In this document: in pieces, positions 15,236 to 49,504 of the stretch | Numbering within the stretch: the stretch's first letter is position 1 | Layout of the letters: every line of letters starts with the position of its first letter | Origin: a virus | IMG/VR virus record: IMGVR_UViG_3300023442_000003 | Span: 1-50,988 of that record | DNA: 50,988 bases | Strand: one strand, 5' to 3' | Notes under the pieces: generated by a model | What the model saw: the letters and a program-made list of their open reading frames with translations, nothing else | The model's database searches: none | What the model was told of the DNA's origin: nothing | Program-made: the position numbers and the translations under genes

Positions 15236-15290
15236 GGCCGGAAGGTAGCCGCTGGCGCCGTTTTCGTCAAGGCGCGGGCAGGGGCCAGGG

Positions 15291-15450
15291 GTATACACGC
15301 TTGGTTTTGGGGGCTGCGGGTATACACTCTTGGCTTTGGGGGCTGCGGGTATACACTCTTGGTTTTGGGGGCTGTGGACTGCGGGCTGTGGGCCGTGGAC
15401 TGGGGGCTGTGGGTATACAGTACTATACACTCTTGGTTTTGGGGGCCGTG
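15291..15450 (+). repeat. G-rich GTATACAC direct repeats upstream of the terminase operon
   Basis: Copies of a unit reading GTATACACTCTTGGTTTTGG followed by GGGCTGYGG begin at 15291, 15320 and 15349, giving a period of 29 bases. A fourth, interrupted copy is at 15422-15450, and between them lies a GGGCTGTGGGCCGTGGACTG-type G-rich stretch. The unit carries the TATACAC motif that is also abundant in the 16.6-17.6 kb control region. The block lies between the divergent terminase and early operons, so it probably holds promoter or operator sites for the leftward late operon. Confidence 0.75.
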
Positions 15451-15530
15451 GACTGAGATGTTTAGGACAAATAGGGGGGGCTTCGCCCCACGCCAGTCCA
15501 TGTGCCCCCCTCCGAGGTACGCCACGGCTG

Positions 15531-15590
15531 CGCTAGGCGCATATCGAGCGCGCTAGGCGCATATCGAGCGCGCTAGGCGCATATCGAGCG
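15531..15590 (+). repeat. Three exact 20-bp tandem repeats
   Basis: The unit CGCTAGGCGCATATCGAGCG occurs three times head to tail without change (15531, 15551, 15571), followed by a partial CGCT. Each unit has a CGC-ATAT-CGAGCG near-palindromic centre. Identical iterons in the divergent intergenic region suggest binding sites for a phage or host regulator, or a packaging or replication signal recognised by the terminase region. Confidence 0.85.
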
Positions 15591-15766
15591 CGCTGAAAAA
15601 CCTAATGTTTTCAGCTGGTTAGACTTCCGCAGTCTGTTGTGGGATAGATGATTTGTCCGAAACGACACGCTCTTTGAAAACTGAATACAGTCTGCCCTAG
15701 CGGGAAACCGCGATAATGGCTCCACCTGAAACGCGGCAATCATGCCGCAAACACTGGAGAGAAACT
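15591..15766 (+). promoter_or_regulatory. Leader upstream of the first rightward gene
   Basis: About 175 bases without a gene separate the tandem repeats from the first rightward start. I see a perfect six-base hairpin GCGGCA-ATCA-TGCCGC at 15733-15748, followed by the GGAGAG ribosome site. A TTGAAA box is present in CTCTTTGAAAACTGAATAC (about 15670), but no convincing -10 sits at the right distance. A promoter for the early operon is expected here; its exact position is not resolved. Confidence 0.35.
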
Positions 15767-16441: not shown

Positions 16442-16624
16442 CTGTGCTGCCTGCTGATGCCCACCTCAACCCCCTCGGCTAGGGTACCACCCGCCAGCGC
16501 ATGACGGCGCTCAGTCGGGCGCTCAGAGCCTCTCGGCCATGGCCTCGCCATACGTCGGGGGCATGAAGCCCACCTACGTAGCGCCGAGGATACCCCGTTC
16601 ATACCCCGACACCGTGGGGAGGCC
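16442..16624. other. Non-coding GC-rich spacer
   Basis: No credible gene with a ribosome site is visible. The only structure I see is a C4/G4 inverted repeat at about 16596-16613 (CCCCGACACCGTGGGG) close to the border with the AT-rich region. It could code for a short RNA, but nothing in the sequence proves it. Confidence 0.35.
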
Positions 16625-17638
16625 GTAAGTATACACTGCGCGTACTCGCCTTAGGGTAGAAAATGTACAGTTGTGTATACTGAACTGTATATTTCCCGTT
16701 ATACGGTACTATGTATTGTTGTATCTACTAGGAAGTCATTGAAAACAAACGACATAATACAAAAACGATTGTATAGTTAGCTACAGCCCCTAAATAATAC
16801 AGTTTTAGATACTTGCTAAAGTAGAACTGGACACTATACACACCACGGGGAAAATCGTTTGGCGCCAGGGGGTTAGGTGGGGATTTCGCAGGTACCACGG
16901 ACTGTATAGTATATACTCTTATTATACAAATAGTTAGATAATACACTTTTTTTTCGTAGATACGTGTAATGTCAACTAACAAAAAGCGTAAAAAGCTCAA
17001 TGATTTCAACACCTTAGCGTTACTATACACTGTAACCCATTGAAATTCCAGCATAATCGGTTCCCGCATAGCATAACCTATTGAAATCACAAGGATTATT
17101 TATAACTATACACTGTAACCCCCTGATATTACAGCATAATCCTAAACTATACAATGGTTTATCGTTGTAAATCAATAGGTTAACCCCATCTGAAAAAGCT
17201 AACCCATTGAAATCATTACATTTTCACTAAACTATACGGAAAAAGGACCCCTGATCTACGAAAGTTTACAGTATAAACTATATAATCTAACTAATTTTGG
17301 CATTTTCTCTCGTAACCCCGTGGTACCACTGCATTTTTTCAGGCCCAAAAATGACTGAAAATCGGCCCACTGTATGCTTGTATCTACTAAGCCCGTAACC
17401 CCTTGGGGCTAAAGGCTTTTTTCACTATACACTGCTGTGTCCAGTTAGCTAACCCATTGGGATAACTGCATTATCCGAAACTATACACTAAAAATAACTA
17501 CCTAAACTGGACAGCAAAAACTATATAGTCGCGGTTTGACACCAAAAAATTTTTCCGGCAAATTCCCCGTGGCGCCGAAAAATTCCGGCACCAACAAGCC
17601 TGTATACTTATGGCCCACCATACACAAGGAGACACAAC
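16625..17638. promoter_or_regulatory. AT-rich control region with dense short repeats (possible origin)
   Basis: About 1 kb is visibly AT-rich within a GC-rich genome and contains no convincing gene. ACTATACAC occurs at 16833, 17022, 17105, 17424 and 17480, with variants at 17146 and 17231. A second element, TAACCC followed by a TTG- and GCAT-containing tract, occurs at 17033, 17116, 17181, 17200, 17313, 17396 and 17450; at 17022-17042 and 17105-17125 the two are joined. Iterated motifs in AT-rich DNA between operons fit a replication origin and/or a regulator-controlled promoter array. A TTGACA box at 17536 and TATACT at 17603 precede the next gene. Confidence 0.7.
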
Positions 17639-17950
17639 ATGGCTTTCGAGCACCTGTTCACTGACACCCAAGCACAACCTGAGGACGAAGAATACACACC
17701 CCTTCACCAGACCGACACCCTCCATCTGATCCCGGCCTACCGCCGTGAGACCCTTACCCCCACCGATGCCGGCTATGATTGGGCCGTGGGGCGGCAGTTC
17801 GTGGTGGTTGGCCCGGAGCTGACGCCACACCGTGGCCAGCGGATTACTGTTGCCGATGTGAAGACCCTCATCCAGTGCGGCATTCGCTACATTGACATCC
17901 AGTTCAACCGTCGGTTCGGCGACAGTGTGTTGGTGGAGCTGCGTCAATGA
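17639..17950 (+). CDS. Hypothetical protein (103 aa)
   Basis: ATG at 17639 has CAAGGAGACAC upstream. The protein is acidic at the N-terminus, then shows strands such as DWAVGRQFVVVGPE, a helix (ITVADVKTLIQCG) and strands at the end (IRYIDIQFNRRFG). The layout suggests a small mixed fold; no family is recognised. It is the first gene after the AT-rich control region and opens the accessory block that contains the RELHWP genes. Confidence 0.6.
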   Translation: MAFEHLFTDTQAQPEDEEYTPLHQTDTLHLIPAYRRETLTPTDAGYDWAVGRQFVVVGPELTPHRGQRITVADVKTLIQCGIRYIDIQFNRRFGDSVLVELRQ

Positions 17951-17958
17951 GGTATATC

Positions 17959-17997
17959 ATGGCCCATGTCGAAGGGCGGTGCGGCGATGTTGCGTGA
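17959..17997 (+). CDS. Possible 12-codon leader peptide
   Basis: ATG at 17959 preceded by TGAGGTATATC opens a 12-codon frame (MAHVEGRCGDVA) whose TGA lies inside the first codons of the first RELHWP gene. That is exactly where the stop of a full gene lies in the other four copies. It may therefore serve to couple translation into the RELHWP gene. The evidence is position only. Confidence 0.3.
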   Translation: MAHVEGRCGDVA

Positions 17998-18172
17998 GCT
18001 GCACTGGCCAGCCGTTGTCAGGGGCCGATGTGGCCTCTGGCCAGTACCCAAGGGCCATGACATCTGCAGCGGCGACGGTCCGCACTTCGGTGACGGCTGC
18101 ACCATGGGTCACGGCCATAGCTACGGGTTCGGTCTGCTCGATGGCCATGGTTATGGTACCAATGCCCCGTGA
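17987..18172 (+). CDS. RELHWP-family small Gly/His-rich protein, copy 1 (61 aa)
   Basis: The protein begins MLRELHWPAVVRGRCGLWPV, then PKG and a tail rich in Gly, His and Asp (HGHSYGFGLLDGHGYG), ending NAP. It is the most divergent of five paralogues: the core R-E-L-H-W-P-A is intact but the HVGRW part is changed to RCGLW. The ATG is placed at the position matching the other copies; an in-frame ATG 21 bases upstream is possible. Its last codons contain the start of copy 2 (11-base overlap), so the two copies are tandem. Function is unknown. Confidence 0.65.
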   Translation: MLRELHWPAVVRGRCGLWPVPKGHDICSGDGPHFGDGCTMGHGHSYGFGLLDGHGYGTNAP

Positions 18173-18380
18173 ACTGCACTGGCCGGCCATTGTCAGTGGC
18201 CATGTTGGCCGTTGGCCAATACCCGAGGGGAACGGCAGGGGCTATAGCGGCCACCAGCGCTACGGCAAAGGCAGGGGCTACCGCCAAGGCAATGGCCGGG
18301 GTTACGACGGCGATGGCGGCAATGGCTACCGCTACGGCAATGGCTACCGCTACGGTAATGGCTATGGCAATGCCCCATGA
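18162..18380 (+). CDS. RELHWP-family small Gly/Tyr-rich protein, copy 2 (72 aa)
   Basis: It starts MPRELHWPAIVSGHVGRWPI, then PEGNG and a tail of near-repeats such as NGYRYGNGYRYGNGYGNAP. The start has no clear ribosome site and overlaps the stop of copy 1, so reinitiation is likely. In the tail, nucleotide changes between repeats (GGC/GGT, TAC/TAT) are silent in this frame, while they change residues in the +1 frame, which supports this frame as the coding one. The TGA overlaps the ATG that opens the conserved leader of the next gene. Tails rich in Tyr, Arg, Gly and Asn are typical of self-associating proteins; that is inference. Confidence 0.75.
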   Translation: MPRELHWPAIVSGHVGRWPIPEGNGRGYSGHQRYGKGRGYRQGNGRGYDGDGGNGYRYGNGYRYGNGYGNAP

Positions 18381-18406
18381 ATACCAACCAACCAAGGAGA
18401 GAGAAT
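18377..18406 (+). promoter_or_regulatory. Conserved leader with ribosome site (after RELHWP copy 2)
   Basis: This 30-base stretch begins with an ATG overlapping the RELHWP stop, reads ATGAATACCAACC then ACCAAGGAGAGAGAAT, and ends at the next gene start. It holds a strong AAGGAG site. The upstream ATG is in frame with the next gene (adding MNTNQPRREN), but the leader length and frame vary between copies, so the downstream ATG is the real start. Confidence 0.75.
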
Positions 18407-18691
18407 ATGAAATCCAACAAACCACACGTCGTTGTCCTGAGTGCAGGCTTCGTCTACGCTTGCAAGAAGATGGAGATCGACTTGGAGAACCGACAGGTGA
18501 CGCTCTTCGACTGCCGGTGCTGTGCCCGGTGGGACATCGACGTGGGGCTGGTGAGCCTTCTGGACGGGCCGGACGCTTCCGACAGCATCGTCTTGCAGCC
18601 CTACATCCCCATCATAACCGTGGCGTTCCACAGCTACCTGCACAGCTTCGCTGTCAGCCCGGAAGGCTGGGAAAAGCACCTTGCCCCGTGA
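18407..18691 (+). CDS. Hypothetical protein between RELHWP copies (94 aa)
   Basis: ATG at 18407 has AAGGAGAGAGAAT upstream. The protein shows strands (HVVVLSAGFVYACKKMEIDL), a CRCC cysteine pair with further Cys nearby, and a C-terminal hydrophobic/aromatic part (PIITVAFHSYLHSFAV). The last codons (LAP, then TGA) coincide with the start of the next RELHWP element, so the C-terminus may derive from it. No family is recognised; the cysteines could bind metal. Confidence 0.6.
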   Translation: MKSNKPHVVVLSAGFVYACKKMEIDLENRQVTLFDCRCCARWDIDVGLVSLLDGPDASDSIVLQPYIPIITVAFHSYLHSFAVSPEGWEKHLAP

Positions 18692-18902
18692 ACTGCACTG
18701 GCCGGCCATTGTCAGTGGCCATGTTGGCTGTTGGTCAATACCCAAGGGTGATGGCGGTGGCTACGGCTACGGGTTCGGCTACCGCTACGGCCATTACCGC
18801 GTTGGCGAAGGCTTCGGCGGTGGCTACGGTGGCGGCTACGACTACCGCTCTGGCTACGGCAGAGGCTACCGCTACGGCTACGGCTATGACAGTGCCCCAT
18901 GA
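18681..18902 (+). CDS. RELHWP-family small Gly/Tyr-rich protein, copy 3 (73 aa)
   Basis: The start codon is TTG at 18681, matching the M-P-R-E-L start of copy 2, and lies 11 bases inside the previous gene. The core is nearly identical to copy 2 (RELHWPAIVSGHVGCWSIPK). The tail is dominated by Gly and Tyr (for example YGYGFGYRYGHYR) and ends SAP. The stop overlaps the next leader ATG. This copy is the richest in GY/RY pairs. The encoded product is judged real because differences from the other copies are mostly silent or conservative in this frame. Confidence 0.7.
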   Translation: MPRELHWPAIVSGHVGCWSIPKGDGGGYGYGFGYRYGHYRVGEGFGGGYGGGYDYRSGYGRGYRYGYGYDSAP

Positions 18903-18924
18903 ATACCAACCAAGGAGAGAGAAT
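18899..18924 (+). promoter_or_regulatory. Conserved leader with ribosome site (after RELHWP copy 3)
   Basis: This is the same leader as after copy 2, but four bases shorter (one ACCA step is missing). The shift puts its first ATG out of frame with the ATPase gene, showing that the leader itself is not translated as part of the next protein. The AAGGAGAGAGAAT ribosome site is unchanged. Confidence 0.7.
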
Positions 18925-19920
18925 ATGCGTGCAAGACTTTTGGCAGATACACTGGCACAGCTGGTGCGGCTGGGCCGCACCACGGTGTTGGAAGGCCCCC
19001 CCGGTGGTGGCAAGACGTCCATCGTCCACCAAGTCGGCGAACGGCTGGGGTTGCCGGTTATCGAGCGGCACCTGCCCACCATGCTGGTGGAGGATTTTGG
19101 GGTACCCTATCCGACAGACAGCGGGTTCGAATACCGGCTGCCGGACTGGTTCCCCCGAAAGGGTAAGGCCGGGACGGAGCAAGGCGGCATTCTGCTGTTC
19201 GACGACCGCAATCAGGCCGGACCGGACTTGCAGAAGGTGCTGGCGAACATCTGTCAGGCCCGAACACTGCACGGCGCTCCGCTGGCCGATGGCTGGGTGG
19301 TACTCAGCACGGGGAACCGGCAGAAGGATCGGGCCGGGGCCAACAGGGTGCTCAGCCACCTTCGGAACCGGGAGACCGTGCTGGATTTGGAGACGCACCT
19401 TGACGACAGCACGGCGTGGATGGTCTCCCATGGGGTGAAGTCCGAGGTGGTAGCGTTTCTGCGCTTCCGCCCTGCGTTGCTGCATGACTTTGACCCGCAG
19501 CGGGATCAGAACCCGACCCCTCGGAGTTGGGTGGAGGGGGTGTCTGCTGTCATGGGCGAAGTGCCATCCGAGGCGGAGTATGAAGTATACTCCGGCGCCG
19601 TCGGTGAGGGCGCGGCAGCAGAGTTTGTCGGCTTTCTCAGGGTATACCGGACAATGCCCGACCCGGACGACATTCTCCGTGGCGTGGACCCCAACCCCGT
19701 GCCGACCGACCCGGCTACCTGCTATGCTCTGACCGGGGCACTGGCCTACCGGGTTACCCCGGATACGTTTTACAGCATGGTCAACTACCTCGAAGGGATG
19801 CCCCCGGAGTTCGGGGTGCTGGCCGTAACCATGGCTGTTCGGAATGACCCGAGCATTGCCAGTGGCCAGACATCGGGGTTTGCCGCATGGGCAGCGGCCA
19901 ATAGCGATGTACTGTTCTGA
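18925..19920 (+). CDS. MoxR-like AAA+ ATPase (331 aa)
   Basis: The protein carries Walker A GPPGGGKTS (residues 24-32), a Walker-B-like ILLFDD (89-94; the usual final Glu is Asp), sensor 1 STGNR (128-132) and a candidate arginine finger in LSHLRNR (143-149). Size and motif spacing fit MoxR/ATPase_5-type chaperones that act with VWA proteins; a metallopeptidase/VWA gene lies two genes downstream. The frame is open far upstream through RELHWP copies 2 and 3, but that part is read in the wrong frame; ATG at 18925 with AAGGAGAGAGAAT is the start. The TGA lies inside the start region of RELHWP copy 4. Confidence 0.85.
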   Translation: MRARLLADTLAQLVRLGRTTVLEGPPGGGKTSIVHQVGERLGLPVIERHLPTMLVEDFGVPYPTDSGFEYRLPDWFPRKGKAGTEQGGILLFDDRNQAGPDLQKVLANICQARTLHGAPLADGWVVLSTGNRQKDRAGANRVLSHLRNRETVLDLETHLDDSTAWMVSHGVKSEVVAFLRFRPALLHDFDPQRDQNPTPRSWVEGVSAVMGEVPSEAEYEVYSGAVGEGAAAEFVGFLRVYRTMPDPDDILRGVDPNPVPTDPATCYALTGALAYRVTPDTFYSMVNYLEGMPPEFGVLAVTMAVRNDPSIASGQTSGFAAWAAANSDVLF

Positions 19921-20125
19921 ACTGCACTGGCCAGCCGTTGTCAGCGGCCACATCGGTCGCTGGCTACTACCCAAGGGCGACGGCTCCGGTGGCGGTTACT
20001 ACGTAGGCTATGGCTATCGCTACAACCATTACCGCCGAGGTGATGGCTCCCGCGACGGCTACCACTATGGCTTCGGCGATGGCTATGCTTCCGGTGACGG
20101 TGAAGGCATCGGTTTCGCCCCATGA
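19907..20125 (+). CDS. RELHWP-family small Gly/Tyr-rich protein, copy 4 (72 aa)
   Basis: ATG at 19907 overlaps the last codons of the ATPase gene by 14 bases and gives MYCSELHWPAVVSGHIGRWL, then LPKGDG and a tail with GYGYRYNHYRRGDG and GFGDGYASGDGEG. In the core, comparison with copy 2 shows silent changes at Pro, Ser, His, Gly and Arg codons and Ile/Val or Ile/Leu swaps, a pattern expected for a protein under selection. The +1 frame is broken here by a TAG. The TGA overlaps the next leader ATG. Confidence 0.75.
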   Translation: MYCSELHWPAVVSGHIGRWLLPKGDGSGGGYYVGYGYRYNHYRRGDGSRDGYHYGFGDGYASGDGEGIGFAP

Positions 20126-20150
20126 ATACCAACCAACCAAGGAGAGAGAC
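20122..20150 (+). promoter_or_regulatory. Conserved leader with ribosome site (after RELHWP copy 4)
   Basis: This is the third leader copy: ATGAATACCAACCAACC, then AAGGAGAGAGAC directly before the ATG of the DUF3150-like gene. It is one base shorter than the 30-base form, which again changes the frame but not the ribosome-site spacing. Confidence 0.7.
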
Positions 20151-21005
20151 ATGACAAGGATTGCTGACAAGGCGCTGCTGGTGCAGCTCAACATCAGCCA
20201 GTGGACGGCACGGAAATACGACCGCCGGGCTACGGCGGACGTGGCGCATACCAACGGCGTCGCTATCGACGTCGGGCGGTACAACAAGAACCTGCTGCCG
20301 GTGGGCAACATGCTCAAGGACGTTGCCAAGCTGGCGACGAGGGTGCGCACGGCGTTCTATGCCAACACCTTGCCGTGGGGTATGGAAGGGACGCAGTTGT
20401 TGCCAACCGACAACTTCCTCGCATTTCGGGATCGGTTCCAGAAGGACAAGGACGATTGGCAGCAGCTTGTCAGCCGCTTCGTCGATGCCTACCCGCAGCT
20501 TCGGGCCGATGCCGAAACCTGTCTGGGGCCGCTCTACAATGCCGAGGACTACCCCCGACCCGAAACCATCGGGCGGAAATTCAGGATGGAGCTGGCGGTG
20601 TACCCACTGCCGACCAACGATTTCCGGGTACAATTGGCCGATGAGGAACTCCAACGTATCCAGAAAGACGTTGAGGATCGCACCGAAGCGGCCAGCAAGG
20701 CCGCGATGGAAGCCCTGTGGAAACGCCTCTACGACAAGGTGGCGCATCTGGCCGACAAACTGGCTGCCCCGGATGCCGTGTTCCGCGATACCACGGTTAC
20801 GGGGTTGGAGGAACTGCTGGACCTCATCCCCCGGCTCAACGTGACCAACGACCAACAGCTTGAGGCACTGCGCCAGCAGGCTGTTGCGAAGCTCACGGCC
20901 CATGAGCCGGACCAGCTGCGGCACAACCCCGGTGTGCGCAAGGCGGCCAGCGATGCTGCTGCCGATGTTCTCGCCAAGATGGGAGCATTCATGGGTGCCG
21001 CGTGA
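20151..21005 (+). CDS. DUF3150-like protein (284 aa)
   Basis: The start NISQWTARKYDRRATADVAH and the following VDVGRYNKNLLP-type segment, then a helical body with TAFYANTLPW and LPTDNFLAFRDRFQ, match my recollection of the DUF3150 family, which is coded beside MoxR-type ATPases and metallopeptidase/VWA proteins in phages and bacteria. The C-terminal half (from about residue 165) is strongly helical and Ala-rich. Together with its neighbours it probably forms a chaperone-like complex whose substrate is unknown. The stop lies inside the start of RELHWP copy 5. Confidence 0.65.
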   Translation: MTRIADKALLVQLNISQWTARKYDRRATADVAHTNGVAIDVGRYNKNLLPVGNMLKDVAKLATRVRTAFYANTLPWGMEGTQLLPTDNFLAFRDRFQKDKDDWQQLVSRFVDAYPQLRADAETCLGPLYNAEDYPRPETIGRKFRMELAVYPLPTNDFRVQLADEELQRIQKDVEDRTEAASKAAMEALWKRLYDKVAHLADKLAAPDAVFRDTTVTGLEELLDLIPRLNVTNDQQLEALRQQAVAKLTAHEPDQLRHNPGVRKAASDAAADVLAKMGAFMGAA

Positions 21006-21180
21006 ACTGCACTGGCCGGCCATTGTCAGCGGCCACGTTGGCCGTTGGTCAATACCCAAGAGCGGCTACCGCTTTGGCGGCGGCCTCCACTACACTGGCT
21101 TTGGCTATGGCTACGGCTGTGGGTACAGCGGCTCTGGCTATGGCTACAATCGCGGTAGTAGCCTCAGCTTTGCCCCATGA
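20995..21180 (+). CDS. RELHWP-family small Gly/Tyr-rich protein, copy 5 (61 aa)
   Basis: The start is GTG at 20995, 11 bases inside the DUF3150-like gene, and gives VPRELHWPAIVSGHVGRWSI, then PKSGYRFGGG and a tail with YGYGCGYSGSGYGYNRG, ending FAP. The core differs from copy 3 mainly by silent changes (AGT/AGC, CAT/CAC, TGT/CGT being the one replacement). It is the last copy, and its TGA overlaps the leader of the metallopeptidase gene. Confidence 0.7.
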   Translation: MPRELHWPAIVSGHVGRWSIPKSGYRFGGGLHYTGFGYGYGCGYSGSGYGYNRGSSLSFAP

Positions 21181-21206
21181 ACACCAATCAACCAAGGAGA
21201 GAGAAT
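21177..21206 (+). promoter_or_regulatory. Conserved leader with ribosome site (after RELHWP copy 5)
   Basis: This fourth leader copy carries two silent-looking changes (AAC ACC AAT in place of AAT ACC AAC) and the same AAGGAGAGAGAAT site. It has the 30-base length and is in frame with the next gene, but the downstream ATG is preferred for the same reason as in the other copies. Confidence 0.7.
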
Positions 21207-22313
21207 ATGACCAAGGAAATCGAGACGAAGATCAGCCGGGCGAAAGCCCGGCTTATCACCAAGCACCCGTTCTTCGGTGCCATCGCATTGCGGCTGGAGA
21301 CGCGGATCACCGACACAGTGCCGACGGCAGGGACGGACGGCAAGACGATCATGTATAACCCGGAGTTCGTGGCTGACCTGACGGACGCCCAGACAGTGTT
21401 CCTCGTAGCCCATGAATGCGGGCATCCCATGCTGGAGCATCTGCACAGGATGAAGGGCCGGGATGCTACCCGGTGGAACAAGGCGGCGGATTTTGTCATC
21501 AACCAGCTGCTGACCGACGAAGGCATCGGGGAGTTCATCCCCGGCGGGTGTCTGGACAAGGCGCTCTACCAGCGTGGCAAGACCGCCGAGGGCATCTATG
21601 CCCTGCTGGAGAGCGAGGCCGAAGGCGGCGGGGTCGGCGGCACCGGGGCCGATCTGATGGAGCCGCAAGGGTCCGAGGCAGAGCAGGCGCAACAGGCTGC
21701 CGAGTGGCGGGTTGCCGTGGCACAGGCTGCACAGGCCGCACGCATGGCTGGCAAGCTGAGTGCTGGCTTGCAACGGGTTGTCGGGGAAGCTCTGCAGCCC
21801 AAGGTGCCGTGGCGCGATGTGCTGGCTCAGTTTGTCTGCAAGGCACGGACGAATGAGCGCAGCTTTGCGCGGCCCAACCGGCGGTTCCTGTCACAGGGGT
21901 TGTATCTGCCCAGCGTGACAGGGGAAGCCTTGGGCGAGATAGTGTTCGCCATTGACTGCTCGGGGTCGGTTGGCCCCAAGGAACTGGATCAGTTTGCCGC
22001 GGAGATGCAGGTGGTACACGAGGATATGCAACCGGCGAAGCTGCATGTGCTGTATTTCGATACCAAGGTTTGCCACAGCGACGTGTTCGAGCCTGACGAC
22101 ACGTTGATGGTTGAGCCGCATGGCGGCGGCGGGACACGGTTCAGCCCAGTGTTCCGACATATCGACGAGCATGGTCTTGAGCCGGTGGCAACGGTGTTCC
22201 TGACGGACCTGTATTGCAGCGACTTCGGGGGTGCGCCGGACTACCCGGTGCTGTGGGTAACGAACGGCGCAGTGGATGCGCCGTTCGGCGATGTAACCAA
22301 GATGGAGGCTTAA
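21207..22313 (+). CDS. Metallopeptidase-like protein with VWA domain (DUF2201-like, 368 aa)
   Basis: The N-terminal half has a zincin motif HECGH at residues 69-73 within VFLVAHECGHPMLEHLHR, and a second conserved-looking stretch WNKAADFVINQLL. After a Gly/Glu/Gln/Ala-rich linker (about 140-180) the C-terminal half is a VWA-like domain with the metal-site motif DCSGS (250-254) in IVFAIDCSGSVGP and later FLTDLYCSDFGG. This two-part build is known in DUF2201-type proteins paired with MoxR ATPases. It likely works with the ATPase and DUF3150-like protein upstream; the biological role in the phage is unknown. Confidence 0.8.
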   Translation: MTKEIETKISRAKARLITKHPFFGAIALRLETRITDTVPTAGTDGKTIMYNPEFVADLTDAQTVFLVAHECGHPMLEHLHRMKGRDATRWNKAADFVINQLLTDEGIGEFIPGGCLDKALYQRGKTAEGIYALLESEAEGGGVGGTGADLMEPQGSEAEQAQQAAEWRVAVAQAAQAARMAGKLSAGLQRVVGEALQPKVPWRDVLAQFVCKARTNERSFARPNRRFLSQGLYLPSVTGEALGEIVFAIDCSGSVGPKELDQFAAEMQVVHEDMQPAKLHVLYFDTKVCHSDVFEPDDTLMVEPHGGGGTRFSPVFRHIDEHGLEPVATVFLTDLYCSDFGGAPDYPVLWVTNGAVDAPFGDVTKMEA

Positions 22314-31730: not shown

Positions 31731-34571
31731 ATGGATACGGCGGATTTTCTGCGGCGGGTTCTCCCAGACGAGGGCCTGTATTGTGCGTTCACCATCAGAG
31801 GCAAAGCGAAGTACAACAAGTTCTACGGCACTACCGACGCTCTGGCTGAGGCGGTTATCGCCACTGACGCGGCAGGGAACAGCGCTTACTACGCCATCGC
31901 GGCATTCAAGACCATGGAGAGCCGGTGCACAGACAACGCCCGTGCGATACGGGTGCTGGCTTTCGACGTAGACTGCGGCGAAGGCAAACCCTACCCCTCG
32001 TGGCGGGAGGGCCTCCGGGCACTCGGGGCTTTCGTCGCCAAGCTGCGACTGCCCAAGCCGTTGATCGTACATTCGGGCAATGGGCTGCACGTTTACTGGG
32101 TACTGGACCGGGCGTTGACGGTACCGGAGTGGCTGCCATTGGCCCGTGCACTGAAAAGCGCCGCTGCTACCACGGGGTTCGATACGGACGCCGGGCCCAC
32201 GGCAAACGCGGCGCTGGTGCTGCGCCCGACCGGGACACACAACGCCAAGAACGGGAACACGGTGCGCGTGCTGCTGGACGCGGCGCCCACTACAGCGGAG
32301 ATCATGGCCAACAGGCTGGGTACCTGCACCCAAGCCCCGTCGCAGCGGGCATCCGGCAATTTGCTCAGCGCCTTGGCAGTGCAGTACAACTACCCCCCAG
32401 CGGACCCGGCAGAGGTAGTTCGCAAATGCGCGCAGGTGCGCACTGCGGTAGAGGATCAGGGGGATGTCTCCGAGCCGGTGTGGTACGCCCTACTCGGGGT
32501 CGCGGCCTACTGCGAGGACTCGGACGCCACCGCCCGCGCGTGGAGCCGCAACCACCCCGGCTACAGCGCGACAGAGACCGCGCGCAAATTGCGGCATTGG
32601 CAGGGCAGCACTACCGGCCCGGCGACGTGTGCCAAGTTCAAGGCGGAAAACCCGAAGGGTTGCAAGGGCTGCGCCTACGCCGGGGAGATAGGCACGCCCG
32701 CACAGCTCGGCGTGCAGTTCGATGAAGTCGATACTGCGGCTGACGCGCCCGAGGCGGCCAATGCGCAGGTGGAGATACCACGCCCCTTCAAACGCACGGC
32801 AGATGGCATCGTGGTATCGCTGGACGGGACAGATGTCCCTATATGCGGGTTCGACCTGTACCCCGTCGGCTATGGGTTCGACGACGCCAGACAATATGAA
32901 ACCGTGCGCTATATGTGGGACAGACCGCATGTCGGGTGGAAGCCCCTCATGCTGCGGCAGGCATTGCTGGTGGATGGCGCGTACCGCGATTTCGCCGAGG
33001 CTATCGCGGATCAGGGGATAATCCTAGAAACGCGCAAACAAACGGAGTTCTTTCAGGTCATGCTCAGATCGTACATGGCGGAGTTGCGGCGGTCGCAGAC
33101 AGTCACGAACACCCATTCGAACATGGGGTGGAAGGGGGGGTTCACGTCGTTTGCCCTCGGGGCCGATCTGTACCGCAGAACCGAGGGCGGTACAGTGGAG
33201 CATACCCTGTTGCCACTTACCTCCAGCGTCCAGCGCGCCGGCGCAACCATGTTCATCACCAAGGGGTCACTGGATACATGGCGCGCGGGTGTATCGGCGC
33301 TGGCAAAAGCCGACCTGCTGGCGATGCAATACTCGCTGGGGACAGGGCTGGCATCTGTGCTGTTCGAGTTCACGGGGCTGAAAGGTGTGACCATATCCTT
33401 CCACGGTCCCACGGGTAGCGGAAAAACACTGGCGCAGCTTATTCAGCAGTCCTTGTGGGGCGACCCCGAGCAGATACATTTCCAATCCAAATTCACACAG
33501 AACGTATTGTTCAACAGGTTCGGGATGCACGGCAACCTCCCCATGACCATCGACGAAGCTACCATCATGTCGCACAAGGACGTTGGGGACTATCTGTACT
33601 GGGTCAGCCAAGGGCGGGACAAGGCCCGGCTGGACCGCAACATCGTGGAACGCGCCCCGAGAGTATGGGCGCTCACGTCCACCCTGTCTACGAATACACC
33701 GGTAGCCAGCAAGATCGTGAGCAGCAGGCATGAGTCGGACGCGCAGCTGGCGCGCTTGCTTGAGCTGCGGGTAGACGTCCCTGCGGTACTGGCCAAGAAC
33801 ACCGAAGTGGGGCGGAAGATATATCGGCTGTTTACCACGAACTACGGGCTGGCGGGGCGCGAGTTTGTGCAGCATCTGTTAATGGCCGGCGAGGGCAAGA
33901 TACGCCGACTGATCGAGCGGGCCGAACCCGCCTTTCGCAAGCGGTACAAGATAAAGTTCACGGGCAACGAGCGGTACTGGGAGCAGGCGCTGGTGCTCAC
34001 GGACTTGGCCCTGCGGCTGGCGCGCGATTACGGCATACTCGACATTGACCCGGCACCGTGCATCCAGTGGGCTGTTGCGCAGGTGGCAGACATGCGTACT
34101 GAGGTGAAGAACCAGACGATGGACGACTTCGATCTCCTTGCCGAGTACCTCAATGAACACCTGTCAAGCACAATACGTGTGTTCTACATAGGAAAGCGCG
34201 CACCGGTGATCGACTTCGGAGACCTGCCACGAGGCAGCGTGCATGTGCGGATAGAAGTTCGTCGGGATACTGCCGACGACGATCCCCACGGGATAATGTA
34301 CATAGACCGCACGCACTTCCGTCGGTGGATGGCGACAAATGGCGGCAGTTACTCGGCATTGCGGAAAGCCCTGCAAGCTGCCAGAGCGGACTTCACCCCG
34401 GCACATGGGAAACTCACGCTGGGTCGGCACACGCCGCTGTCGTTGCCACAGCAGTATGTTCTTGGTGTTGGGTTGCATCACCCCCGGCTTGCAGGCGTTC
34501 TTGCGGACGTGGCGGCGGGGCGCAAACAAGGGGACCACAACGTGGTTCGGCTCAATACCCCAAAAGCGTAG
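31731..34571 (+). CDS. Primase-helicase with DUF927-like region (946 aa)
   Basis: The N-terminal part looks like an archaeo-eukaryotic-type primase: FDVDCGEG (D79, D81) and HSGNGLHVYW (S115 to W123), followed by LRPTGTHNAKNG and a PriCT-like helical and Cys-containing region. The central and C-terminal part is a DUF927-like ATPase with Walker A GPTGSGKT (559-566) and a Walker-B-like LPMTIDEATIM. This is the fork motor and primer-making enzyme of the phage. GGAGG is about 13 bases before ATG. The 3' end overlaps the convergent polyvalent gene by 20 bases. Confidence 0.85.
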   Translation: MDTADFLRRVLPDEGLYCAFTIRGKAKYNKFYGTTDALAEAVIATDAAGNSAYYAIAAFKTMESRCTDNARAIRVLAFDVDCGEGKPYPSWREGLRALGAFVAKLRLPKPLIVHSGNGLHVYWVLDRALTVPEWLPLARALKSAAATTGFDTDAGPTANAALVLRPTGTHNAKNGNTVRVLLDAAPTTAEIMANRLGTCTQAPSQRASGNLLSALAVQYNYPPADPAEVVRKCAQVRTAVEDQGDVSEPVWYALLGVAAYCEDSDATARAWSRNHPGYSATETARKLRHWQGSTTGPATCAKFKAENPKGCKGCAYAGEIGTPAQLGVQFDEVDTAADAPEAANAQVEIPRPFKRTADGIVVSLDGTDVPICGFDLYPVGYGFDDARQYETVRYMWDRPHVGWKPLMLRQALLVDGAYRDFAEAIADQGIILETRKQTEFFQVMLRSYMAELRRSQTVTNTHSNMGWKGGFTSFALGADLYRRTEGGTVEHTLLPLTSSVQRAGATMFITKGSLDTWRAGVSALAKADLLAMQYSLGTGLASVLFEFTGLKGVTISFHGPTGSGKTLAQLIQQSLWGDPEQIHFQSKFTQNVLFNRFGMHGNLPMTIDEATIMSHKDVGDYLYWVSQGRDKARLDRNIVERAPRVWALTSTLSTNTPVASKIVSSRHESDAQLARLLELRVDVPAVLAKNTEVGRKIYRLFTTNYGLAGREFVQHLLMAGEGKIRRLIERAEPAFRKRYKIKFTGNERYWEQALVLTDLALRLARDYGILDIDPAPCIQWAVAQVADMRTEVKNQTMDDFDLLAEYLNEHLSSTIRVFYIGKRAPVIDFGDLPRGSVHVRIEVRRDTADDDPHGIMYIDRTHFRRWMATNGGSYSALRKALQAARADFTPAHGKLTLGRHTPLSLPQQYVLGVGLHHPRLAGVLADVAAGRKQGDHNVVRLNTPKA

Positions 34572-37500
34572 CAGCGCGCTCATATTGCGCGCGGGTGGAC
34601 TTCGGCGAGTATTTCAGTGTGCGAGCAGATACAGTCTGCTTGGCGGCGCGGACCCGGGCGGCGGCGTTTTTCTGGAAGTTGCGCACTTCCAGCCCGGTAC
34701 CTCGGGCTTCCTTGTTCCATGCGTGCACCTCACGCACGATGCGCACCATTGCGGCGGTGTCTCCACGCAACGAGGCTTGCACATAGGCGTTGTAGAATGT
34801 CGCGGCAGTGTCCCGCTGGTAGTTGGACAGGCGCTGAGCTACGCGGATAACTCCGTACTGCTGCGCGGCGGCACTGGGGTAGAACCCAAGTGCCCGTGCC
34901 ATGATGACCGCCGCGCTGGCATCCTGTGTGACATGATACCCGCGCTTATCCACAACAGCGCCGGTCTCGTGGTAAGCGTAGGCATCGGCCCATGCCCGCA
35001 CCATGGTGACAGGGGACTTGCGCGCCGCCGTCAAAAGAGACGCCGGGCGTTGTGTCAGGCCAACCGCATGGGCGGCCCACTGCGCGGCTTCCGTACCGCT
35101 GGTCAGGAGGCCGGCAATAGCACCAGCGGCGGGGCCAGCAACTGCAAGCCCTTCACGCCACGTATCCGCGTTTGGCAGGAACATGCCCGTACCGGGGAAC
35201 ATGTCCCCAAGGGACGTGCGCGCGCCGAAGTCTCCGGGCAGGACCGTGTTTATCGCGCCGCTTGTAAGGATCGACGACCACCCCGGCACTACGCTGTCCA
35301 TCGCCTCGGCGATCTTGAGGCGGATACTTGGCGTCTTGAGGCCGAGCCGCGCAGCAAGCGTATCCACTACGTCCTCCATATCCTGCGCGAAGGGCAGACC
35401 TGCGACCCCGGACAATCCGAGCATCCCGCCGAGGAAGATGAGTTGCGATTTTCGTGGCAGGTTACGCAGCAGATGTACCGTCATGGTCGGGTATATCTTG
35501 TACATGTACATGAATTGCTGCACGCCGCCGCGCCACAGCGCGGGCCGGTTGGACACGGCGTACTCACCGAGCGTGTCCTCCACGGTGGTGACAGCGAACT
35601 TGCGCGCCCGCGCCATGGCAATATCCATGGGCTGCCCGGCCTGTCGTGCGCGGTCAAACTGCAAGCGGTATGACGCCAGCAGGACCGCGCGCCGGGAAGC
35701 CTGCTCTGTGCGGTTGAACGGGAGCAGCCAGAAATCCAGAAATTTCTGCAAGGCTACGTTGGTCATACGCCCGCGCGCAGAAGCAATAAGGGCGTTCGAC
35801 AGGGCCGGGATGGCTATGCCTTCTTCGATCTCATGGGCGAGGAACAGCGCTTCGTCCGCAGTCAGGTCTGCCTTCTTCAAACCGGCGCTATCTTCGGCCA
35901 GCGCGAAGTAGTACCGCGCCGTGTTTGCCTTGGCGTTTACCATGCCGACAGTGCCAACAGTGCGCATGGCCCTGAACAGGGCAGTGATGGTCGGACCATA
36001 GTTGAAGCCCCCGCCGAAAGCGCGGGCCCCGTTGTAGGACGCCAGATACGGCACCGTGTTCGTTATGACGGATACGACGTTGAGAGACCCCGTGGCAATG
36101 GAGCCGCCGAGTTGGGCGGCGCTTGCGGCTCCGCGCACTGCTGATGCCACCGCACCGCTGCCAAAATCCGATTCGTCGAGGTTGCGCTGGCTCTCCATGA
36201 AGGCGAGTGACCGCGCTGCTTCGGCGTAGTACCGCTGGGCCATGCTGACGCCACCCGTGCCGGGCCGGGCAGTGCGTTTCTGCTGGAACTGGTACGTGCG
36301 CAGGGCGCGCTTGGCTTCGACACGCGCAGACTCACTGGCGTTCGGGTCGGCAGACAACGCGGCGTGCGAGGCTTTCAAGCGACCGAGCAGCTCCGTGTCG
36401 TTGGCGTTCCACAGCCGCCGCGAGGCAGACAGGCTCATATTCATGAGCTGGTCAAGGTCGGGCCGGATGATTGTCTTGGCGATGGTGGCCGCACGCGACT
36501 CGATGTGCCCCGATATGGCCTTGGCCGCATTTGGGCTGGCCCCCGGCTGGAAAGCACGCATGAGTCGGTTTCTGGCCCGGCTGTTCTGCCGGGTCATCGT
36601 GATGACAAGCTCTTCCATCTTCTTCGGCGGGATGGGGATACTGAAACGGCGCAAGCCGATCAGGAACTCATTCAGGTTAAGCTGCGGCGGTGCGGCTTCC
36701 AGTGTTACCGCATGGTCCGCCACGGCCTTGATATGCACATCGCGCACGCGGTACCCTCGCATGTCACCGTCCCACACGGCTACTTGGTACGTGTTGTCCG
36801 TGCCACCGAATACCTCGTTGATCTTGTCGCGCAAGGTGGCCGCTTCTCCCACAGTGTCCACCTGATGGTAGGAGAGTTGCTGCGAGAAGGAGTCCTTCAT
36901 GCGCAGTTCTTTCCCTGTTGCGGGGTCGATAGCTACCATGCGCACCTGTATGCGCCCCTCACGCAGCACCGGCACGTAGCCGGTTGCAATGGACTGCTCT
37001 GTTCTCTGGCTGCCGTCGTTTCGGGAAATCTCCGAGACCGCCAACTCTTTCATCTTGTTCTGTATGACGAACTTCTGATCTTCTGACGGATGGAACCGTG
37101 TTTTGAACTGTTCGATATTGGCGGCTACTTCGTCCGCGCGTTTGCCTGTAAACCACCCCTTCACCTTGGCGTTACGGTCTGACCCTCTGGTAGCAATCAG
37201 TGCCGCGTTGAGGTCTGCGAGGAACTGGTTGGCCCGGTCCAGCGCGGCAGTGTCCACGATGATTTGCCCATCCGAGGCAACCTGTGATCCAGCGTTGTAC
37301 AGATCACGGTATACGGAGTTCATGTCGAGCAGGAATGCACGGTCCTCTGGCGTCATGGCGCCGCCCATGGCATCGTTTATTTCGAGCAGTTGCGTGTCGG
37401 TCACTTTCAGGTGCGCGATATACTTGGCACGCAGCAGGTCCATCTCTACCTTGTCCATCTGCTCACGGGCGCGCTTGTAGAACTTCCACTCCAAGCTCTT

Positions 37501-40500
37501 TTCCGTCAGGTGCGGCAGCGCGGGGAACTTCTCCGTGCGCTCTTCGAGGAACACACCGCTGTCGATGCGCATGGCGTAGTCCGTCCTTATGGCCGCTTTC
37601 TCGGACGGGGATGCCGCCTTGGCGATGGCGGCATCCCGCGCGGCTTCCAGCTTGGCCGTAAGCTCTGGAGTCAACGGCGCTTCGTCGAATACGGTGTAGG
37701 TGAACCCCTTGCGGAAGTCTTCCAAGGCCATGTGCCCTGCCTGCTGCAATTTCTTGAGGTACGCGGCGTTCTCCACGATCTTGCCGTCTACGAGGTCTAT
37801 GAGCTTTGGCTTCTTCGCGGACGTGTCCGGCGTGTATCGGGATACCGCCAGCCGTTGCCCGGCGTACAACATGCTGTCCAGCAGTTTTTTCTGGGTAGTT
37901 GTTACGCCGTCGCCGATCTTGACAAGTTTCAGGTCGAGCTGCGGATTGAGGTACCCAGCCAGTGCTTCGTTCGCCTTCGTCTTGGTGCTCATGGCCTGCC
38001 GGTTTGCCGACATGATGATGTCGTAGTACCTGCTCAGGCCGGGGTTCTCCTTGGCGCGGTAGTTCGTCAGTGCGAATGCGTGCGATTTCATGCGGTCCAG
38101 CAAGTCTGTGACATTGTGGAAGCTGGAGAGGAGGTTGTCCTTGGACAGCGGTGGGAGCTTGCCGTTCATCAGCCCCGTGGCAAACCCCAGTTCGTGCAGG
38201 GAATTTGCCGGCATGTACCGACCGACAGCAGCCTCCGTGGCGGCCCCGGTCTCCATGTCATGCAGAGACCGCGCAATTGCCACGTTGTCGAACATGGCCC
38301 CGATGCCCCCATTGCGGACATAACGCCGCGCATGGCTTACAAGGTACCGCGCAGCATCGTCGGAGAATCCGAAACCCGCCCGGTTGAGCGCGGTCTTGAG
38401 CGCAGCCCATATGCGCGCCAGCAGACTGCTGTCCAGCGCAGCGGCGAAGTCCGCCAGATACTCTTCGACGGCCTCCGGGCGGCTCATGCCCGCTGTCTCC
38501 ACTGCTGCGTCTGCTGCGTGCCGGATAGCCGGGCTGCCGTCGTATATTTCTTGCATCATCGTGTTGAACTTCGTCGCCGGGATGACGCCCCGCAGGCCAA
38601 AATGCCCAATGGTTTCATGCGCCAGAACGGCCCGGGCGTGGGCTTCATCGGCGATGTTGTCGGTAAACAGGAACACATGCCCGTCACCGAAGGAATAGCC
38701 CGCTGCCTTGGACGCAGCAAAGTCTCCCTGCGGGCGTGCGGCGTTCGCCGCCTTGTACAGATGCGGGTCTTTCTTTCTCAGATGCGCCACGTTTCGGTAC
38801 AGCCGTACTTTCGGTCTGCGGGCCAGCTTCTTGATGTATCGGCCTACGACAAGGCGTGCTCTGCCCATCTTGATGGGGCTGCTGATGTCGTTATACGAGT
38901 CGAGCTTGTTGCGCCCCGTATCTTTGCTCACCACAGGCCGTATGCCGTTGGCGTCCCGTGCGCCCCGGTGGAAAAACTCCGGGTTTTCCGGCGAGAGCAA
39001 CGCGCTCATAGGCCCATCACCGTACTGTGGGTTGCTGTCTTTTATGCGCCGCCATGCGTCGCGCAGGGCTGAGCGCGCCTTGGCGGACAGGTTGCGGGTC
39101 TTGCCCGCGTTTATTGCGTCGATGGTGCTGGCAATCAATTCGTAGTCGAACCCCGGCGCCAACCTCCGCGTATCGCGCATGGCAGCCTCGGCTGCGTGTG
39201 CGTCCTCCCGCCGCAGTTCGTACAGGGCCTCGGCGTCTCGAACTTGCGCTGCACCGTTGGGGTCGTTCTGCACGCTCACGAGGAACTCCTTGGCGTGCAG
39301 ACGCACGGCATTGTCACCCATCTTGCTCCAGAAAATAACTTCCTCCAGTGCATGGACGGCGCGCTTGGACGTATTTGCCACTTCGGCTTGCCCGATTGCT
39401 TCGTCGAGAAACTCCCTGTCAGTCAGCGGCGCCTCCGGCCCACCAGCCTGTTTGCGGCGCGCGGCCAGCTGGCGCTGAGTATCCAGCTTGGCCCTGTATT
39501 CGGCCAGCGCCGTTTTCGGCGGCAGGAGTACGCGGCGTTCGGGCTTACTTGCGCCCGCGTTTGGTACGGGCTTTTTTGCCGTGCCTTTCGCAGGCTGCGC
39601 CTCCGGTGGCAAGGTACCCTCGGTGGCAAGGCGCGCAACTTCGGCCTTTGCTTCGGCCAATGTATTTCCGAGGTACCCATTACCTAGCGGCCCCGTGAAG
39701 TTCGGCTCCGGCGTAAACCCTTCGAGATACCAGCCGGGAACCCGGTTGGCCTGCGCTGCTGCCTCCCGCCTGATTGCTACGGTCTTACCGTCGGACAGCG
39801 TAAGGATGTGGTCTGACCCTTCGTTCACACCGAGGGAACGCCGCTTGCTGCCCACGACCGTAACTGGCGACTTCGGCGTGGCTTTCAGCTTGGCTGCCTT
39901 CGGTGCCTTGGGCTTCAGCGTGGCTTTCAGCTTGGCTGCCTTCGGTGCCTTGGGCTTCGGCGTGGCTTTCAGCTTGGCTGCCTTCGGTGCGAACGCTTTC
40001 TCCAACCGAGCTTTCGTTGCTGCCGGGTTCTCGTTGTTGGCGACTGCCAGACTGGGGTTTGGTTGCGTCGGTGACGGCAGGATCGTTGGCTGGTCCAGCA
40101 GGGGCTGCGCTTTGCCCGGTCGCACGCGGCGTTTCAGTTTTTTGAACAGCGCCTCGTCAGCGGAGCCACCAGCGACGGCCTGCGTCCAGTCCAGCCGCGC
40201 TTTTGGGGTCAGCCTGTCGAATGTAACCCGCGACTCCGGCGGGCGCATCTGTTCCCACGCGGCCTCTGCTTGCAGCAGCGCATCGCGGGCCTGCTGTTGG
40301 GCCTGCTGTTGAGCCTGCTCGAACTCCTGCTGCCGGCGCGCGGCGATCTCGGCGGCCTGCTGCTGCGCGTGCTGGTCTTGCGCAGTTGCTATCTCCTGCG
40401 CCTTGCGCATCTCAGCCTGCCGCGCCAGCAACGGGGTAAGCTGGTCTGCGATAGCCGTGCTTGTCTGTGTAGCCGGCGCGGCAGCGAAGGTATTTATGGG

Positions 40501-42099: not shown

Positions 42100-43883
42100 G
42101 GCGCCGCTCCCGGCCTGAGAATCTGTACGCGTCGCCGCGCCGTGGGCAACCCGGGCGCGGCGTCCGGGATGGCTTCCCAATAGTGCAACTCATTGTTTCC
42201 AGTGACACTGTTGTATACAAGGACCGCCGGGCCGGAAATACCGAAGTCGCCCAAGTCCCCCGCCGCGTATTTTTGCAGCACTTGCAAGCCGCCGCTCAGC
42301 CCGAGGTCGGCGGCGGCGCGCGCGGCCTCTTTGCCTTGCGCCTTACTATTTGCAGTGGCCACCTCGGCCACTTGGTCCCTGTAGGCACTGTCGAAGAACT
42401 CACGCGCCATGTTCGCCAGTGCGTCCTTGCTCAGCTTTTGCATGTCTCGAGGACCAAGTGCGCCGTTAACATACAGGTCGTAAGTACCGTCGCCCCGGAG
42501 CACCGGTGTAACTTCGGAGCCGTAGTAGTGAGTGAGTACGCGCCCAAGGCGGGTAGCACTGCCAAGGGCGAGGTCGTTCACGGCCTGCATACCTTCCAGA
42601 TAAGTCAGCGTGGCATCCAGTTTCTGGATCGTGGTTGCATACTGCTGCGCGCGCTTTGTATCCCCCGATGCTACGGACTGGTTATACGCGGCTGTGAGTC
42701 GCTGGCGCTGCGTAATCGCGTTGACCAGCTCACCATTCAGGCGGGGCATGTCCCGGATAAGCACCTTTGACGGCGTAACGACACGCCCGCTTTCCGGCGG
42801 GGCGGCCACAACGGTGTCCACTGGCGACGCGTCTGTCTTGCCCCGCACACCCGCCTTTGGGCCCGCCGCTGTGGCAGCAGGCGGCGATTTCGCGCCAAGC
42901 TCCGGCCCCTCCAGCGCAAATACCCCGCGCGGAGCCGGGGCCTTGGGCCGCGTCGTATCCTTGGTCGCTACGGTAAATTCGGTCAGCGCGTTGTTCAGCA
43001 GTCGCTCAGCCTTGACAGTATCCGCGAGTGCCCCAGCGTCGCCAGCATCGTAGCGCTGTTGCGCCAGCTCTGCGGCGTGCTGGAGGCCCGGAATGCTCGC
43101 ATTAAGCTGCTGCGCGTAGATGGCACGAACTTGGCTTTCCAGCTTGCGGCGCTGCGCAGGCTTGGCGTTCTGGAACTCCGACGGCAGGGTGACGGCCCCG
43201 GTAGCAGGGTCATACTGCGCGATGAGGCCACTCAACCCCGGCGCTGCCACAGGTACAGTTGCGCCACCGCCTGCTACTGGCTCTGGCATGGCGGTAAACC
43301 CCGCGCGGGACGCCGCCAGACCCGCCCGCGTCGCCATGGCATCCGCTTGCGAAAGGTGCGTAGACAGCCCCGGTGCGGGCGCCGTTGGTGCCGCAGGCGC
43401 AGGTGGCGCCGTGGGAAGCCCCGGTCGGGCGGGGAATGTACTCACAGGCGCGCTGGCAGCCGGCGCGACGGCGGGCGCCCCCACAGGGGTACCGACAGGG
43501 AAGGCCGGCAGTGGCGGCGGGGCGCCTGTTACCGGCGTACCGAGAGCAAACCCGACCGGGGAGAACCCGAGCGGCGCCGGTCCCGCAGCCGGTGCAGCGG
43601 CGGGCGCGGTGTTCAGCCCGATAACATCCGGCATGGCGCCAAGGGGCGGCGGGGGTGTGCTCGCCTTGCCCCTGCCACGCGCAGCGGCTTTGGCCATGCG
43701 GAGACGCTCGGCCTGTATGGCCATGTTCTGACGTATCTGCGCGGCAGCCAGCTTGTCCTTCTCGCGCTGGCGCAGCGTTTCGTCAAGCCCGGCCAGCGCG
43801 TCAGCCGGGCCGGGGCCGGGGACAGCCCTAAGCCCCCCGAGGATGTTGACCCCACGACGAACACTGGTGGCGGACAGGACCAT
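42096..43883 (-). CDS. Pro/Ala-rich internal virion protein (595 aa)
   Basis: ATG at 43883 follows TTAGGAGACAACC. The N-terminal 80 residues are helical (ETLRQREKDKLAAAQIRQNM), followed by about 120 residues rich in Pro, Ala and Gly, then helical segments (LESQVRAIYAQQLNASIPGL) and a C-terminal part with LTHYYGSEVTPVLRGDGTYD and YLEGMQAVNDLALG. It is coded between the 327-residue and the giant virion genes and is translationally coupled to the latter, so it is most likely an ejected inner core protein. No enzymatic motif is visible. Confidence 0.6.
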   Translation of the reverse strand: MVLSATSVRRGVNILGGLRAVPGPGPADALAGLDETLRQREKDKLAAAQIRQNMAIQAERLRMAKAAARGRGKASTPPPPLGAMPDVIGLNTAPAAAPAAGPAPLGFSPVGFALGTPVTGAPPPLPAFPVGTPVGAPAVAPAASAPVSTFPARPGLPTAPPAPAAPTAPAPGLSTHLSQADAMATRAGLAASRAGFTAMPEPVAGGGATVPVAAPGLSGLIAQYDPATGAVTLPSEFQNAKPAQRRKLESQVRAIYAQQLNASIPGLQHAAELAQQRYDAGDAGALADTVKAERLLNNALTEFTVATKDTTRPKAPAPRGVFALEGPELGAKSPPAATAAGPKAGVRGKTDASPVDTVVAAPPESGRVVTPSKVLIRDMPRLNGELVNAITQRQRLTAAYNQSVASGDTKRAQQYATTIQKLDATLTYLEGMQAVNDLALGSATRLGRVLTHYYGSEVTPVLRGDGTYDLYVNGALGPRDMQKLSKDALANMAREFFDSAYRDQVAEVATANSKAQGKEAARAAADLGLSGGLQVLQKYAAGDLGDFGISGPAVLVYNSVTGNNELHYWEAIPDAAPGLPTARRRVQILRPGAAP

Positions 43884-49036: not shown

Positions 49037-49504
49037 ATGCTGTATTTCCCGTGGTACAGAGAGCAGCATGACGACCGCATATTCAAATGGTCGAACGTAT
49101 GGATGTTGCCCGAGGAACATGAACGGCTGCTCTTCCCCGATAACACCCGGCAGCTTTACGCCCAAGAGCTAGCGAAAGCTGCGTTCAACGACGCGTATAA
49201 GCCATCAGAAATAGCAATATACCTCGCGAAAGACTGCATCGTGCACTACAGGCACCTTGCTGAGAGCCATAAAACCGAGGCTATCGAGGCCCGAAAAGAG
49301 GTGTCGGCAATGAAGCGGCAAAAAAGAAAGCCCGTTCGAAAAACCGTCTTGGGGTCGCACATAGCATCAGCGAAGGCGCTGGAAACCCAACTTGCCAAGT
49401 ACGGGCTGCACGCGGAGGCGGAAACAATAGCGCGGCTACGCCGAAGTGCGGAAGCTCTCTCGGCCTTGCCCAGCCATTTGGAGCGAGCCACCCACAACAT
49501 CTGA
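49037..49504 (+). CDS. Hypothetical protein ending in the first ERA repeat (155 aa)
   Basis: The frame is open from 48806, but that part covers the small membrane gene and the tRNA; the first ATG after the tRNA is at 49037, without a clear ribosome site. The protein begins MLYFPWYREQHDDRIFKWSN, has a long charged helical half (KDCIVHYRHLAESHKTEAIE) and a basic segment (MKRQKRKPVRKTV). It ends SHLERATHNI, where ERAT is the first unit of the repeat array that continues in the +1 frame immediately after its TGA. No family is recognised. Confidence 0.5.
   Translation: MLYFPWYREQHDDRIFKWSNVWMLPEEHERLLFPDNTRQLYAQELAKAAFNDAYKPSEIAIYLAKDCIVHYRHLAESHKTEAIEARKEVSAMKRQKRKPVRKTVLGSHIASAKALETQLAKYGLHAEAETIARLRRSAEALSALPSHLERATHNI

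Follow-up and report, generated by a model that had tools for sequence, protein, structure and literature searches.

Mobile regulatory cassettes are known from T4-type phages, in which they are located between genes and take the form of early promoter stem-loops. Condensate proteins such as FUS carry Gly/Tyr low-complexity domains. In prokaryotes, low-complexity regions are reported to be strongly depleted of aromatic residues, and those of DNA-processing proteins to be enriched in Lys, and also in Gly and Tyr (PMC6821194).

Here we describe five minigenes encoded in a viral record from IMG/VR, which was analysed over its whole length of 50,988 bp (the window). Like the T4-type cassettes, they are short repeated units at gene junctions with a possible role in module shuffling, but the T4-type cassettes are non-coding promoter/hairpin units, whereas the minigenes are coding and show no sign of structured RNA. 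Their tails share Gly-spaced Tyr and predicted disorder with FUS-type domains, which however are eukaryotic and have no sequence relationship to the minigenes; self-association of the minigene products is suggested by composition only. The moron-like junction genes of related phages have the same junctions, the same start embedded in an ATPase gene and the small size in common with the window minigenes, but their sequences are ordinary and lack a Gly/Tyr tail, and in the window a single family fills several junctions. ATGA overlaps, low-complexity tails and intergenic cassettes are each already known as single ingredients. To our knowledge no described kind of element combines these features, and we found none. 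In the open-access literature (subscription papers were not covered), no description of Gly/Tyr-rich phage families or low-complexity phage proteins of this kind was found.

The operon and its five minigenes

The left part of the window encodes late genes on the minus strand (terminase, head-tail adaptor/portal, major head protein and tail fibre), and the region from 17.6 to 34.6 kb encodes an ATPase, a VWA-like protein, exonucleases, DNA polymerase, helicase and primase on the plus strand. We call the latter module early because of its gene functions, which is an inference. The minigenes are located at the start of this module, ahead of the replication genes, in the order upstream gene, m1, m2, GFV, m3, AAA ATPase, m4, 284-aa gene, m5 and VWA gene (Table 1). 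These frames and positions are shown by computation, and no further minigene copies are present elsewhere in the 50,988-bp record. An AT-rich stretch without long frames (~16.6-17.6 kb) directly precedes the minigene region. This stretch (16620-17640), between the leftward late and the rightward early genes, contains repeated ACTATACACTGTAACCC(A/C)... units and is likely a promoter/origin region. As a separate observation, the protein of the VWA gene carries the PHROG 1314 label 'HNH endonuclease', whereas Pfam assigns DUF2201 metallopeptidase-like and VWA-like domains to it; the PHROG label appears to be a misassignment here.

Table 1. Coordinates of operon genes, minigenes and a cassette edge in the window.
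Feature	Coordinates	Strand	Description
Upstream operon gene	17639..17950	+	103 aa, function unknown; homologues in close relatives
Minigene m1	17987..18172	+	61 aa, ATG; core ELHWPAVV; Gly/His tail, Tyr-poor
Minigene m2	18162..18380	+	72 aa, ATG; tandem behind m1, overlaps m1 stop
m2 cassette 3' edge	18377..18409	+	Includes ribosome-binding site of next gene (ATGAATACCAACCAACCAAGGAGAGAGAATATG)
'GFV' operon gene	18407..18691	+	~94 aa, function unknown
Minigene m3	18681..18902	+	73 aa, TTG
AAA ATPase (MoxR-like)	18925..19920	+	Operon anchor gene
Minigene m4	19907..20125	+	72 aa, ATG inside 3' end of ATPase gene
284-aa operon gene	20151..21005	+	Function unknown
Minigene m5	20995..21180	+	61 aa, GTG
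DUF2201 putative metallopeptidase/VWA-like gene	21207..22313	+	

A first-pass annotation, made from the sequence alone, had listed five frames with a common core, all ending in AP, and all five were confirmed. The core ELHWPA[IV]V is present in all five copies and is followed by S-G-H-[VI]-G-x-W in four of them and by R-G-R-C-G-L-W in m1; a C-terminal AP directly precedes the stop in 5/5 products. The description of the tails as rich in G, Y, R and N held in part. The tails of m2-m5 contain 33-41% Gly and 18-25% Tyr, and Tyr and Arg are spaced by Gly, with the exception of m1, which has a tail of the Gly/His/Asp type and just two Tyr in 61 residues. GGN and TAN codons account for 122 of the 228 codons in the five tails, versus 71 expected (codon-position shuffle; 0/5000 shuffles), and Gly/Tyr codons are retained although the DNA of the tails has diverged. 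Self-association of such tails, also put forward in that annotation, is plausible from their composition. AlphaFold2 predictions for 18 sequences (mean pLDDT 41) gave low-confidence, unstructured models, none of them usable.

The start codons of m1, m2, m3 and m5 are located 8 nt ahead of the stop of the preceding frame, and that of m4 11 nt ahead. For m2-m5 the preceding frame is in each case the preceding gene; for m1 it is a frame of 16 codons, running from the ATGA that closes the upstream gene (17947) to a TGA at 17995-17997. The ATG, TTG and GTG starts of m2, m3 and m5 sit in otherwise near-identical sequence, and this A/T/G variation before TG fits selection for any start codon. At the 3' end each copy reads GCCCC[AG]TGA, and m2-m5 are followed by a conserved AAGGAGAGAGA and then by the ATG of the next gene. 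The edges behind m3, m4 and m5 are near-identical to that of m2, while m1 runs straight into m2 without a ribosome-binding site for a next gene. Each cassette in the window measures ~200-250 bp. The gene upstream of m3 ends in HLAP*, and its L018 homologue (E=1e-13) ends in HL*. The additional codons for AP correspond to the edge of the cassette itself (TGCCCCGTGAAC), and we read them as an insertion footprint, the only one shown.

Related minigenes in other phages

We compared the locus with 80 others whose ATPases are related to that of the window (61-75% identical). Several of these loci carry Gly/Tyr-tailed minigenes with different core DNA. L020, L026 and the L110/L022 record have 2-5 copies of [MV]THLYWPRLLPGQIIT.KDG(YG.G)n, L018 has MT[HQ]LHWPRLLSDGWVF in two copies, L086 has seven copies built around [IV]LWPLFSxGxLxT, and L028 has one minigene with another core. 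The start codons of these minigenes share nucleotides with the previous stop, for the most part in the form ATGA or GTGA, and the same holds between tandem copies. Their tails are acidic and Arg-poor. The common junction slots are shown by computation: in L086 and in the window the minigenes occupy the same operon junctions. In nearly every relative the 284-aa gene is conserved at its place between the genes for the ATPase and the VWA protein, and the GFV gene is homologous to the genes adjoining the minigenes of L018 and L020 (blastp E=1e-13 and 9e-13, respectively).

We propose a family of LxWP/Gly-Tyr minigenes that includes the lineages L018, L020/L026/L110 and L086, with a frame of 60-90 aa, L-x-W-P near the start and then a Gly/Tyr-rich tail. 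The window copies fit this design, m1 in its core and not in a Tyr-rich tail, and they also fit in placement, at the ATPase/284-aa/VWA operon junctions with the start codon close to the previous stop or overlapping it. The window and the lineages have the operon, its junctions, the architecture and L-x-W-P in common. A profile search with the core had been suggested in the first-pass annotation; core-only HMMs with the tails masked revealed no significant similarity across lineages. Common descent of the lineages, which rests on position and architecture, is likely, but has not been proven. Copies are much more alike within one phage than between phages, a pattern suggestive of local expansion or of concerted evolution.

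Minigenes are absent from most relatives of the operon, indicating that they are dispensable. The near-identical L020 and L026 differ by one whole copy and in tail length, which points to rapid gain and loss of copies. Among the nearest relatives, L012, L013, L014, L015, L017, L018 and L019 have other small genes in the post-ATPase junction, and these start at the very ATG, inside the 3' end of the ATPase gene, that m4 uses; L016 lacks a gene at this place. Other small genes are also found in the junction before the VWA gene in L013, L015 and L018. The post-ATPase slot of L012-L019 looks like a place where small accessory genes are exchanged.

Searches of Pfam, PHROGs, NCBIfam, PADLOC and PDB gave nothing more than weak matches to low-complexity sequence, which for the profile families did not reach the curated cut-offs, and the earlier statement that no described family has this core holds within the libraries searched. 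Neither protein nor DNA searches of IMG/VR with the window minigenes found close relatives, and a search of phage records returned only two partial low-complexity matches and no close relatives. The one match in the genome-contig search (L182) was rejected as chance; it has no tail, and no close relatives were found there. Whole-minigene tblastn against phages gave no matches, probably because the low-complexity tails are masked.

Minigenes built along similar lines are also present in unrelated phages. Rhodobacteraceae phage LS06-2018-MD06 (L179 6793-7230) has two tandem overlapping minigenes (WBK39798 and WBK39797), which, like those in the window, have a short aromatic core (MFRL[YH]P), a Gly/Tyr tail and a start overlapping the previous stop. 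The core is different, however, the C-terminus is GFLNV, the function is unknown, and the likeness is architectural only. Each junction in this phage reads TTTTTAAATGTTTAGACTG or similar, with stop and start overlapping. MW202566, MW202478 and Chlorobiaceae phage CV-1-33 each have a single minigene of this general design, again with a different core.

The largest number was found in the 457-kb record of a jumbo phage (G051, IMGVR_UViG_3300021979_000001; L096/L188/L189), with ~80 minigene frames in ~28 kb, a count that allows for a small overlap between the fetched pieces. They are located at both contig ends and comprise several core families (TIYNLYYSIPLITN, SIKLN, INQSFYINI and SIETY) with Gly/Tyr/Asp tails. 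The array resembles the window in the combination of a short core with a Gly/Tyr/Asp tail, in the size of 60-110 aa and in the many tandem copies on one strand. It differs in its cores, its AT-richer codons and its copy number, and has gaps of 21 or ~55 nt where the window has overlaps; again, the resemblance is architectural only. The codons GGT, GGG, GAT and TAT are used for a similar residue pattern, which points to the protein. The terminase DNA of this phage is nearest to that of Agrobacterium phage Atu_ph07. The occurrence of such arrays in cultured RaK2-like jumbo phages was not supported, as Atu_ph07, RaK2, Serratia BF and XaC1 contain no match to a strict repeat pattern. This pattern would miss irregular tails; even in a loosened form it matches the window only once.

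Evidence for coding

The first-pass annotation had argued from substitutions between the window copies that these are real proteins and not DNA repeats. Within the window the argument was overstated. In the proposed frame the core has a pN/pS of 0.46 (column-shuffle p=0.065), and a slightly shorter core has 0.50 (p=0.12). Because shuffles reach 0.46 in 6.5% of cases, the window alone is suggestive of coding and no more. The TAG that had been noted in the +1 frame of m4 is indeed present, but in the remaining four copies that frame is open.

The conclusion itself held, mainly by virtue of the relatives, in which frame-specific selection in two lineages is accompanied by the same operon and architecture. 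Coding selection in these relatives is shown by computation: the seven L086 cores have a pN/pS of 0.32 in the proposed frame (0/5000 shuffles) and of 0.99 and 1.92 in the other two frames, which contain stops, and the L018/L020-type cores have a pN/pS of 0.21 (p=0.001). Chiefly on this comparative evidence, we have little doubt that the five window frames are protein-coding, with translation itself being inferred.

Alternatively, the repeats could be DNA or RNA elements, serving as recombination linkers or structured junction RNA, with the open frame incidental. The genes are set apart by direct repeats, between which recombination could take place, and the core carries a weak conserved hairpin. 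Against this explanation, selection in the relatives is frame-specific, folding z-scores range from -1.7 to +0.35 without covariation support, there is no match in Rfam, and the protein design is kept across lineages while the core DNA differs. We consider it very unlikely.

A cassette model and its rivals

Of the explanations considered, we prefer one in which the minigenes are mobile cassettes under translational coupling, each for a small disordered protein whose tail mediates self-association, although the arguments on either side weigh roughly the same. Within this reading, coding and the behaviour as cassettes have good support. A cassette would consist of a start at the previous stop, an LxWP core of ~20 residues, a disordered, Gly-rich and mostly Tyr-rich tail, and the stop [AG]TGA. 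Cassettes would have spread into the junctions of the early operon, probably through recombination, although this spread is inferred. The overlap of start and stop in the window and in the relatives suggests that translation is probably coupled. Ribosomes finishing one operon gene would restart on the minigene, so that the minigene dose would follow the operon; both coupling and dose are inferred from geometry. The LxWP core would provide a specific contact, with a partner that is inferred, and the tail may act as a multivalent 'sticker', in which Gly separates the Tyr residues and, for the window copies, the Arg residues as well. This role is deduced from composition only. The proteins would gather into assemblies during early infection; the self-association and its benefit to the phage are inferences as well. 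Since the m1 tail is nearly free of Tyr and the tails of the relatives are acidic and Arg-poor, Tyr-Arg stickers are ruled out as a general feature of the family. With acidic tails in the relatives, Tyr-Tyr rather than Tyr-Arg contacts would have to serve the family as a whole.

The main rival is that the minigenes are selfish filler, coding cassettes that serve mainly themselves. A minigene overlapping its neighbours at start and stop would be the least harmful insertion for an operon, because ribosomes are kept in motion and there is no polarity, and a tail growing by GGC-NAC slippage would need only to be soluble and harmless. The fast turnover of copies and tail length, the lack of minigenes in many relatives, the HL* to HLAP* footprint and the free variation of the tails around a simple composition favour this explanation. 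However, the cores of two lineages are under purifying selection stronger than 'any open frame' needs, the window tails hold on to their Gly/Tyr codons in spite of the divergence, and unrelated phages carry similar designs with other cores. In our judgement the balance tips against selfish filler.

The minigene products could also be specific regulators or inhibitors, with the LxWP core binding one host or phage target, for example a polymerase, a nuclease or the ATPase/VWA pair. The tail would then be a tether for solubility or nucleic-acid contact, and multiple copies would raise the dose or vary the specificity. The location of the minigenes ahead of the replication genes in the early module, the presence of other small accessory genes in the same slots in relatives, and the Lys, Gly and Tyr enrichment reported for low-complexity regions in DNA processing (PMC6821194) are in agreement with this explanation. 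On the other hand, no similarity to known effector, defence or structural families was found in the libraries searched, the cores are very short, and the tails in relatives are acidic. We therefore regard it as unlikely.

Returning to self-associating cassettes, we speculate that the minigenes may represent a new class of phage genes, coupled mobile minigene cassettes for self-assembling Gly/Tyr-rich proteins that would build an early intracellular assembly. On this bolder reading, which is no more than possible, the class would have arisen or spread in unrelated phages, with five copies in the window operon and ~80 in the jumbo phage. If the tails do assemble, phages would possess a so far unrecognised set of tiny proteins that form condensates or scaffolds. 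Even without assembly, the cassettes show short coding DNA colonising operon junctions at stop codons while expression remains unbroken.

Three other features of the window are located outside the minigene region. A 2542-aa frame on the minus strand (34552-42180) matches only the C-terminal part of the 3431-aa phrog_11358, of unknown function, and contains three 42-nt repeats at 39871-39996. At 15281-15594, 29-nt direct repeats (GGTATACACTCTTGGTTTTGGGGGCTG...) are found together with a 20-nt tandem repeat (GCGCTAGGCGCATATCGAGC). At 49472-49687, near genes for tRNA-Cys (48934) and tRNA-Met (50038), there are imperfect tandem repeats of 36 nt around GAGCGAGCCA.
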